64,000 bases of DNA. It comes from an uncultured Pseudothermotoga sp. Its GTDB lineage: Bacteria > Thermotogota > Thermotogae > Thermotogales > DSM-5069. Location of the stretch: contig CALKJI010000013.1 in NCBI GenBank assembly GCA_937995655.1, positions 1-64,000 on the forward strand, in the 5' to 3' direction. This document shows positions 45,859 through 47,863 of this stretch, one piece after another. The notes beneath the pieces were generated by a model. The model had not been told where the DNA came from, did not search any database, and saw only the letters and a program-made list of their open reading frames with translations. Made by a program: the position numbers and the translations under genes. Within the stretch, counting starts at the first letter, position 1, and the number at the start of each line of letters is the position of its first letter.

Positions 45859-45890
45859 CTAAGGCCCCCGTGAGGGGGCTTTAGTTTATT
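45859..45890 (+). terminator. Terminator between phosphatase and the Cys-rich gene
   Basis: AAGGCCCCC / GGGGGCTTT stem with GTGA loop, followed by AGTTTATT. It stands between converging genes. Confidence 0.7.
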
Positions 45891-45899
45891 CAACCTTAC

Positions 45900-46112
45900 T
45901 CAGGTTTGTCCCTCCAAGGTTTTTATTCTTTGCTCGATCCACTTTAGTTCTTCGTTGAGCATTTCAGCCGCATGCTTAAGATTATTGATTTCATCCTCTT
46001 TAGTTTGTGAAGTCTCACATACTTGAAATTCCCCTGGTGAGCAACAGCATCTTGGCCAAGATGCCGACTGAATTTTACTCATAAAGATCATCTTGTGTCC
46101 ATGACAGTACAT
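45900..46112 (-). CDS. Small Cys/His-rich protein with coiled coil
   Basis: 70 residues: an N-terminus with possible metal ligands (MYCHGHKM, a CCC triplet near 22-24, Cys near 32) and a charged coiled-coil C-terminus (EDEINNLKHAAEMLNEELKW). ATG 46112 is chosen because AAGGAGGTGA sits correctly upstream; GTG 46121 is part of that site. Third gene of the NifX-like/PadR mini-operon. It resembles in layout the short metal-site-plus-coil proteins found beside NifX-like genes; function unknown. Confidence 0.6.
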   Translation of the reverse strand: MYCHGHKMIFMSKIQSASWPRCCCSPGEFQVCETSQTKEDEINNLKHAAEMLNEELKWIEQRIKTLEGQT

Positions 46113-46113
46113 T

Positions 46114-46470
46114 CTACTCACCTCCTTCGCTGATATTGATGATTTTGTGTATCATCTTAACATTTTCTTTCGCATGAAAGCACCAGTTATTCAGGAAATC
46201 TTCACCAGTTTGTGTGATTGAATAGACTCTTCTTGCAGGTCCAGTCACTTGCACCTCCCAGTTTGAGCTCACCAAACCTTGTAATTCCATGGTTCTCAAT
46301 GCCCTGTAGAGAATGCTGGGATGACAACAAGAAATATTCAAACCTAATTCAGACAGTTTCTCCATCAAAGAATACCCATGATTTGGTTGTTTTTTTAAAA
46401 TAGCTAACAACGCCGGTATCAGAAGATCCATCTTTACAGCTCCGTGCATACATCTTCCAACACTTGGCAT
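46114..46470 (-). CDS. PadR-family transcriptional regulator
   Basis: 118 residues with the PadR winged helix: LLAILKKQPNHGYSLMEKL, HPSILYRALRTMELQGLV, and the wing GPARRVYSITQTGEDFL. Cysteines at the N-terminus, a CC pair before the recognition helix and a late Cys with several His could bind metal or sense redox. ATG 46470 overlaps the NifX-like stop by one base (TAATG) with GGAG before it; the longer open frame merely reads through that gene. Probably controls the operon through the palindrome in its promoter. Confidence 0.82.
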   Translation of the reverse strand: MPSVGRCMHGAVKMDLLIPALLAILKKQPNHGYSLMEKLSELGLNISCCHPSILYRALRTMELQGLVSSNWEVQVTGPARRVYSITQTGEDFLNNWCFHAKENVKMIHKIINISEGGE

Positions 46471-46874
46471 TAACTCCGGCCCTCCCCGTTTGATGAATGA
46501 GAACAACCATGATGAGCCTCTTGTTTCGAGTGGAAACACCCTTCAGTAAGCTTCTCAAGTTTATCGTCCCTATAATCTTTGATAACTTCTTCGATGGTAA
46601 GGGTATCTGTCCTAAAGACCGTAACTCCTGCTCTCTCAAAAGCTTCCAAAGCTCCAGGACCAATCTGTTGCACTATCAAGGCCGTTGGGTTGAGGGTGAG
46701 TAGCACATCTTTTGGTTTTTCAGAACCACCAAAATGATCACTCCTGTTCTGTAATTTATCGATCTTGATGATGTTGCCGTTTTCATCCAAGTCAACGACG
46801 GCAAAATAGGGTGCTCTACCAAAATGTGAAGAAATGGTAGATCCATCAAGTGTTGGTACGATTATCCTAAGCAT
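46470..46874 (-). CDS. NifX/NifB-C-like (Fe-Mo cofactor biosynthesis family) protein with His/Cys-rich tail
   Basis: 134 residues of the dinitrogenase iron-molybdenum cofactor fold: IIVPTLDGSTISSHFGRAPYF, VQQIGPGALEAFERAGV. The C-terminus is unusual (CFHSKQEAHHGCSHS) and looks metal-binding. In non-diazotrophs such proteins handle Fe-S/Mo clusters or metal in small operons. GGAGGTCGGG precedes the ATG. It leads a three-gene operon with PadR and a Cys-rich protein. Confidence 0.8.
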   Translation of the reverse strand: MLRIIVPTLDGSTISSHFGRAPYFAVVDLDENGNIIKIDKLQNRSDHFGGSEKPKDVLLTLNPTALIVQQIGPGALEAFERAGVTVFRTDTLTIEEVIKDYRDDKLEKLTEGCFHSKQEAHHGCSHSSNGEGRS

Positions 46875-46902
46875 TTACCCGACCTCCTCACTCTAACTCT
46901 AC

Positions 46903-46930
46903 AATATAGCACTTATGTGCAATTTGTCAA
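46903..46930 (-). promoter_or_regulatory. Promoter with palindromic operator for the NifX-like/PadR operon
   Basis: On the minus strand TTGACA (46930-46925), 16-base spacer, TATATT (46908-46903). The spacer contains the inverted repeat GCAC-ATAA-GTGC (46920-46909), ideally placed for a repressor, plausibly the operon's own PadR. Confidence 0.65.
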
Positions 46931-47056: not shown

Positions 47057-47863
47057 ATGAGAATAAACGACGTGACAAGTATGTGGGCAGCTAGGTATCT
47101 TGAATTCTTACAGAATAGACAGTCGGCCCTCACTCAGCAGATTGCTCAAGCCACTATGCCTTTTAATGCAAATATATCTTCATCAGCGATCTCTGAAAGG
47201 TTGCGCGCACAAATGAGAGGTTATGAAAGATCGATGTACGATGTTTACAACGCAATTGGTATGCTGAATGTAGCAGAAGGTGGTTTGAATTCAATAACTA
47301 CAAGCCTCCAGAGAATGAGAGAATTGGCTGTCCAAGCTTCAAGTTCTACGCTGAGCGAATCTGATCGAAGTGCCTTGCAAAAAGAATTTCAGCAAATGCA
47401 ACAACAAATAAATAAAACCTCTCAACAAACACAGTATAATAACATAGCAGTTATAGCTGGAGATGTTAGAAACTATCAAGTACAAACAGGGCCGAACGAA
47501 GGGCAGAACATGTCTATAACGATAGGTCCGGTCAATACACAAACTCTTGGAATTGAAAATCTGAACCTGAACAGTGTTCAAAACTCTCAAAATGCTATTG
47601 AAAAGATTGACAGAGCCTTAGAACAACTAAACAGCACAAGATCCTATATTGGTGCCACTACTAATAGACTTGTCTCCGCAGCAAGAGAGCTTTCAAACAC
47701 CATGACAAACATCACCTCGAGTGTGAGTACATTGACAGATACGGACATGGCAAGATCTATGATGGACTTTATAAGAACACAATTGTTGACTCGATCTACA
47801 ACGGCCATGATGAGTTACTCTAACCTATCCCGGTTAGCAGTACTCAGAATATTGGGCGCTTGA
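47057..47863 (+). CDS. Flagellin, short form without variable domain
   Basis: 268 residues. Conserved D0/D1 N-terminal helices (SSAISERLRAQMRGYERSMYDVYNAIGMLNVAEGGLNSI), a short central loop with TQYNNIAVIAG and the C-terminal helix (IDRALEQLNSTRSYIGA). The D2/D3 domain is absent. The N-terminal first 30 residues and C-terminal end (SYSNLSRLAVLRILGA) deviate from the usual flagellin ends, so this may be a minor filament or hook-associated variant. Monocistronic between its own promoter and terminator. Confidence 0.8.
   Translation: MRINDVTSMWAARYLEFLQNRQSALTQQIAQATMPFNANISSSAISERLRAQMRGYERSMYDVYNAIGMLNVAEGGLNSITTSLQRMRELAVQASSSTLSESDRSALQKEFQQMQQQINKTSQQTQYNNIAVIAGDVRNYQVQTGPNEGQNMSITIGPVNTQTLGIENLNLNSVQNSQNAIEKIDRALEQLNSTRSYIGATTNRLVSAARELSNTMTNITSSVSTLTDTDMARSMMDFIRTQLLTRSTTAMMSYSNLSRLAVLRILGA

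Follow-up and report, generated by a model that had tools for sequence, protein, structure and literature searches.

A conserved putative operator in the promoter spacer of an operon for NifX-like, PadR and DUF5320-like proteins in a Thermotogota genome

The window, the whole stretch of 64,000 nt that was analysed, belongs to a heat-loving host genome of the Thermotogota type (G000; 2.11 Mb, 14 contigs). It carries an operon for a NifX-like protein, a PadR regulator and a small DUF5320-like protein, and the dyad GCAC-ATAA-GTGC in the promoter spacer is a putative operator that is conserved in the clade of this PadR. PadR very probably binds the dyad inside its own promoter, and local autorepression of the operon by PadR is well supported by comparative sequence evidence. 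PadR regulators, autoregulation and the domain families are all familiar, and the operator and module described here are a new variation on them. The gene calls, the domain matches and the promoter (Table 1) confirmed the observation of the original prediction, an operon of these three genes with a palindrome in the spacer of its promoter.

Table 1. Features of the operon and its surroundings, with positions in the window.
Feature	Position	Strand	Evidence or remark
Core promoter: TTGACA (46930-46925), 16-nt spacer, TATATT (46908-46903)	46903..46930	-	11/12 consensus matches
Proposed PadR operator TGCACATAAGTGCT, a dyad of 14 bp that occupies the spacer	46908..46921	-	sole exact match in G000; kept in relatives
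NifX-like gene, single-domain Nitro_FeMo-Co (Di-Nase), 134 aa	46470..46874	-	PF02579 profile match
PadR regulator gene, 118 aa	46114..46470	-	PF03551 match; ATG start at 46470
DUF5320-like small protein gene (ORF3), 70 aa	45900..46112	-	sub-threshold PF17253 match
Terminator-like stem, 11 pairs	45859..45884		between the operon and a convergent alkaline phosphatase gene

One strong promoter precedes all three genes. The stop codon of the NifX-like gene overlaps with the ATG of padR in the sequence TAATG at 46470, and this ATG, not an upstream GTG, is likely the start of padR. Only 1 nt separates padR from the DUF5320-like gene, whose ATG, as read from the sequence, sits behind GGAGGTGAG. The terminator-like stem possibly serves both the operon and the alkaline phosphatase gene. 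On the other side, a flagellin-like gene begins at 47057 and is divergent from the operon. G000 contains a single NifX-like, a single PadR and a single DUF5320-like gene, all of them within the operon at 45900-46874.

The position of GCAC-ATAA-GTGC within the -35/-10 spacer, as originally described, was borne out: GCACTTATGTGC (plus strand) is located at 46909-46920, between TTGACA and TATATT, and is the sole GCAC-N4-GTGC in the window. Judged alone, it is a weak and unremarkable palindrome. The number of such sites expected by chance in the window was 0.39, and 33 of 100 shuffles contained at least one. Within the operator dyad of the window, 5 of 7 positions pair. Since such a palindrome is frequent by chance, the case for a real site depends on where it lies and on its conservation. 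The canonical ATGT-N8/10-ACAT operator, which is common among the PadR family but not strictly defining, was absent from the promoter sequence as read by eye; the conserved dyad there is TGCACATAWGTGCW.

We aligned six promoters of the clade (window, L003, L005, L006, L101 and L103) by anchoring on the -35 box. All six retain TTGAYA-n3-TGCAC-R-TA-nn-TG. In the spacer columns the majority letter was shared by 5.31 of the 6 promoters on average, compared to 3.31 in the upstream and 3.29 in the downstream columns. Of 129 centres scored for a 14-bp dyad, the best lay 16 nt from the T that opens the -35 box (0.72; the runner-up had 0.50), and the L006 promoter, from genome G057, holds the perfect palindrome TGCACATATGTGCA. 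The search pattern TTGAYAWWWTGCACRTANRTG was composed after inspection of the six promoters. With at most one mismatch it gave 8 matches in 103 Thermotogota genomes, and 7 of these were at promoters of PadR operons. Exact matches were present in G000, G057, G063 and G064, and matches with one mismatch in G065, G004 and G013; for G065, the matched site was verified to be the NifX promoter. The eighth match, in G039, lies inside an open frame. The reversed pattern, used as a control on the same 103 genomes, gave 0 matches. As the pattern was derived from the six promoters, the four exact matches were expected; what the search contributes is the near absence of sites elsewhere in the 103 genomes. 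The six promoters and the 7 of 8 matches at PadR operons answer the question raised in the original prediction of whether the palindrome is conserved upstream of homologues: it is. By sequence evidence, this PadR has what marks an autoregulator, a conserved putative operator in its own promoter.

The exact arms of only 4 bp and the frequency of such palindromes in shuffled sequence would also fit a binding site for a different regulator, or a palindrome that merely results from the base composition of promoters. We regard this as very improbable, since the site follows the PadR promoters through the 103 genomes, including G057, which lacks NifX, and since the dyad is specific for one position in the promoter.

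The promoter survey comprised 123 distinct PadR loci, 76 from Thermotogota and 47 from a wider scan of genome contigs. A promoter with 11-12 of 12 consensus positions was found at 22 of 33 NifX-linked PadR loci versus 10 of 90 unlinked loci. Spacer pairing at the NifX-linked loci reached a mean of 5.18/7, compared to 4.35/7 in 52 control promoters from the same loci (p = 1e-4). The PadR promoters of the more distant groups f10 and f2 contain a different spacer palindrome (consensus TGTCAATAGTGATA in the set used, 9 loci entered), but its dyad is centred as far from the -35 box as that of the window clade (0.72, next 0.53). The spacers of groups f6 and f8 are AT-repetitive (consensus TGTATATATGTGTA) and their dyad centre is ambiguous. 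Seven NifX-linked loci had no promoter with a score of at least 10 (L004, which is at a contig edge, L023, L052, L073, L082, L084 and L086), and the spacer palindromes of L070, L080 and L145 were poor. Because of these exceptions among the 33 NifX-linked loci, the spacer operator is a trait of some PadR groups and not of every NifX-linked PadR.

A wider PadR regulon in G000 was also considered and rejected. The exact 14-mer of the operator occurs once in this genome, and of three sites with one mismatch two (L093 and L095) are at the start of an ORF and one (L094) is inside an ORF. For this reason no second target is proposed, and the operon is the sole putative PadR target found. Locus L095 also harbors the tandem palindromes TGCACATTTGTGCA and TGCACGTTTGTGCA (L095:1501-1532; G000:C12:21191 and 21209) at the 5' end of an ORF, beside an ABC ATPase. 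This pair is probably the operator of another regulator.

The PadR protein matched PF03551 with 65.6 bits (cut-off 27). The nearest curated NCBIfam model was PhaQ (TIGR02719), with 66.5 bits and thus below its equivalog cut-off of 139.35, and the NCBIfam model for Rv3488 was matched with 33.9 bits, below its cut-off of 140. The AlphaFold model of the PadR monomer (pLDDT 88.3, pTM 0.79) contains helices at 17-27, 32-41 and 51-63, wing strands at 67-72 and 80-85, and a helix at 87-114, which together form a predicted winged HTH with a C-terminal dimerisation helix. PadR structures (LmrR, Rv3488 and bcPadR) were the top Foldseek matches to the model, and PDB 2esh (TM0937) was the nearest solved PadR and the best sequence match (9e-18). 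The PadRs of L067, L076 and L089, which we take to be TM0937-like, differ from the window PadR in that no NifX-like gene was found nearby and the tail Cys is missing.

The autorepressors of PadR subfamily 2, LmrR and bcPadR1, and also PhaQ are likewise short PadRs with a wHTH and a C-terminal dimer helix, and their genes likewise lie inside the operon that is thought to be the target. One report describes binding of bcPadR1 to its own promoter, a precedent for PadR autoregulation, and operators in the lmrR promoter (PMC3506622). PhaQ regulates phaQ and phaP, according to the title of a reference in PMC4947961. The operator of the window is similar to TGCACATATGTGCA, whereas the box of bcPadR1 and LmrR, as given in PMC3506622, is an ATGT/ACAT inverted repeat with a spacer of 8-10 nt. 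The targets also differ: NifX-like and DUF5320 proteins here versus transporters or phasin for LmrR, bcPadR1 and PhaQ.

The PadR family is better known for drug and phenolic ligands. In the main rival explanation, the window PadR is an autorepressor whose inducer is a small molecule, organic or hydrophobic, that occupies the usual PadR dimer pocket, as in LmrR; the metal-related neighbors would then be cargo, and the cysteine C7 would merely be part of a basic, DNA-contacting tail. The ordinary fold and the structural matches named above are in line with this explanation, as are the tail itself, which is disordered and basic around C7 (RRC, KKC), and PhaQ, a PHB-responsive repressor, as the closest curated model, albeit below the cut-off. 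Autoregulators are known among subfamily-2 PadRs, as described in PMC3506622. However, C7 is kept in the clade while most tail residues vary, the linked genes in the loci read are related to metals or Fe-S and are not drug pumps or PHB genes, and in the f2 relatives the tail gains further Cys and His. We consider an organic ligand fairly unlikely.

The window PadR has Cys and His residues at C7/H9, C48-C49/H50 and C97/H99. While C7 is invariant in 15/15 PadRs of the clade, C48-C49 and C97 vary. The tail with C7 had a pLDDT below 50 and is predicted to be disordered; C48-C49 are placed by the model before the recognition helix 51-63, and C97 on the dimer helix. Among Thermotogota, PadRs with a tail Cys were found in 23/31 NifX-linked versus 9/45 unlinked cases (p = 4e-6), a count with some flaws: the motif search parsed L077 and L014 wrongly, it leaves out one row of L108, and it includes L052 and L080 for a Cys outside the tail. 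This last error is corrected in the tree test, which counted more narrowly. The tree test used 83 rows, the Thermotogota PadRs and seven chosen loci from the wider genome-contig scan, the other rows of which were omitted. On the tree, 10 changes were needed for NifX linkage and 9 for the tail Cys, and the 4 independent pairs on supported branches gave a median p of 1 in the sign test. Since tail-Cys PadRs form few clades, the raw p value lapses after the tree test, and we rejected the association of Cys and NifX as proof of sensing. The window PadR may sense a metal or the redox state, but of its Cys residues C7 alone is conserved, in the tail predicted to be disordered.

The f2 PadRs of L074, L077, L079, L090 and L091 have a longer N-terminal tail of the type CxC...H...HxC, which looks like a metal site. 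They adjoin NifX-like proteins with an internal His-rich loop.

The PadR protein Rv3488 of M. tuberculosis has the same fold and was matched by the window PadR in both sequence and structure. Rv3488 reportedly binds cadmium, which makes it doubtful that a metal-sensing PadR would be the novelty that was first suggested.

The NifX-like protein matched PF02579 (Nitro_FeMo-Co, Di-Nase) with 75.8 bits (cut-off 26.3). For NifX proper (TIGR02663) the score was only 18.9 bits, far from the equivalog cut-off of 112, and the nitrogenase component PF00148 had 0 matches in G000, while it was positive in 4 of 14 controls. With TIGR02663 missed and PF00148 absent, the first protein of the operon is best classified as a single-domain Di-Nase protein and not as NifX proper. 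Solved structures related to the Nitro_FeMo-Co protein include MTH1175 and ORP, and for MrpORP, binding of Fe-S clusters by the Di-Nase domain was demonstrated (PMC6345978). The NifX-like protein ends in a Cys/His-rich C-terminal tail. Its GCxHS motif recurs in L003, L004 and L101 but is absent in L005, and 14 of 37 NifX tails contain at least 3 His/Cys in the last 25 residues.

The DUF5320-like protein consists of a short Cys-containing N-terminal part and a C-terminal coiled-coil-like helix. It scored 22.2 bits against PF17253 and did not reach the cut-off of 27, which was passed by the products of L003 (27.4 bits), L005 (31.3), L103 (32.7), L101 (35.9) and L102 (39.7). The orthologue of L004 stayed below the cut-off with 25.3 bits, so that two of the three proteins from the same genus passed. 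The RCCC motif of ORF3 is private to the window genome, and one Cys position is common to 7/8 aligned ORF3-type products including that of the window, as read by eye. Cys/His clusters in all three products had been part of the original prediction. This is literally correct, but most of these residues are not conserved; C7, one Cys of ORF3 and, in part, the GCxHS tail are kept. The NifX-like proteins of L008 and L010-L013 end in a coiled-coil-like helix that looks like the C-terminal half of the DUF5320-like protein of the window, as though the two proteins were fused.

Of the 76 distinct PadR genes from Thermotogota in the sampled loci, 31 have a NifX-like neighbor on their own strand at a distance of at most 1 kb, although the number of NifX-like genes per genome ranged from 0 to 4. 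The trio of NifX-like, PadR and DUF5320-like genes, which according to the original prediction should be sought in other genomes, was found in L003, L004 and L005 of the same genus and in L101; by genome, the operon is kept in G063, G064 and G065. At L102, the C-terminus of a NifX protein at the contig edge is followed by PadR, a DGC protein, two ArsP_1 half permeases and DUF5320 (the run from PadR to DUF5320 spans L102:128-2184). L103 contains PadR, DUF5320, two ferredoxin-MinD ATPases, a second DUF5320-like protein, a metallo-beta-lactamase-fold protein and an Mrp ATPase. The f6 and f8 loci combine PadR with ArsP_1-type half permeases, present as a pair in f8, and a NifX protein that has a C-terminal coiled-coil-like helix, and at L080 and L082 PadR is beside NifX and ferredoxin-MinD-type ATPases. 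These neighbors of PadR (ferredoxin-MinD and Mrp ATPases, DGC, ArsP_1 and, in G057, an 18-Cys peptide) support a role in metal or metallocluster handling. Together with the domain content they make a role in metal or Fe-S homeostasis plausible. Of the self-regulated metal or Fe-S module that was originally proposed, self-regulation with a spacer operator was upheld, and the metal or Fe-S part is plausible from domains and neighbors.

The ORP and MrpORP proteins of Desulfovibrio contain the same Nitro_FeMo-Co (Di-Nase) domain, and relatives of the window PadR adjoin ferredoxin-MinD and Mrp ATPases. According to a reference title in PMC6345978, the orp operons of Desulfovibrio depend on sigma54 and a cognate regulator, whereas the operon described here has PadR and a TTGACA/TATATT promoter. 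Unlike the Desulfovibrio ORP systems, the window operon has no ATPase gene; the Mrp-type ATPase matches of G000 are on other contigs.

We also considered that the NifX-like protein is the sensor, which would bind or deliver a metal cluster and act on a ligand-free PadR as co-repressor or anti-repressor. The NifX-like gene and padR are translationally coupled here and overlap in several relatives, and in a MAG (L015:955-1881, G014) PadR and NifX-like domains are read as one frame of 309 aa. Nevertheless, a NifX-like gene was sought and not found in G057, which retains PadR, the operator and the Cys-rich peptide. Moreover, the L015 frame retains a ribosome-binding site and an ATG between the two domains, and a lost stop codon or an assembly error is therefore likelier than a true or young fusion; as Rosetta-stone evidence, the fusion was downgraded. 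Sensing by the NifX-like protein is in our view clearly improbable. The Cys-rich peptide of G057 is metallothionein-like and 81 aa long, and its first half holds 18 Cys, as counted by eye (L006:1242-1484, minus strand). Its gene directly follows padR, and it also has a DUF5320-like helix.

In the explanation that we favor, a PadR dimer would occupy the 14-bp dyad between -35 and -10 and would shut RNA polymerase out of the near-consensus promoter, and the nifX-like gene, padR and the DUF5320-like gene would be repressed together. The grounds for this repression step are the conservation of the site, its position and its single occurrence. As family and neighborhood suggest, the NifX-like domain would carry or buffer an Fe-S or other metal cluster, and the DUF5320-like protein may be its helper or partner. 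Induction would most likely act on C7 of both PadR subunits, through a thiophilic metal, the loss of a cluster or oxidation of the thiol; this is the weakest step, and a single Cys on each subunit offers little for metal binding. The promoter would be freed when more carrier or buffer is needed. Taken as a whole, a local, autorepressed operon for metallocluster handling, with PadR released by a signal at C7, appears reasonably probable to us.

More tentatively, and with more doubt than confidence, this PadR clade of Thermotogota and a few other lineages might be metal or cluster sensors. The two N-terminal Cys of the dimer would hold an Fe-S cluster or a thiophilic metal next to the DNA, switch the promoter with its spacer operator and so tune the NifX-like/DUF5320 metallocluster module. 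The tail of the f2 PadRs would have grown into the CxC...H...HxC site, and in one relative the same switch would drive the 18-Cys metallothionein-like peptide.

In the open-access literature searched, we recognised no publication in which a PadR is linked to NifX-like or DUF5320 proteins or to the operator of the window. Although many anaerobes have NifX-like (Di-Nase) and DUF5320 proteins, little is understood about them. If they have a repressor of their own that acts at a known site, this would give a handle on when cells need these proteins; the operator is short, unique in G000 and readily testable. If PadR is indeed responsive to a metal or cluster, an Fe-S or metal sensor would be added to a family better known for drugs and phenolic compounds.
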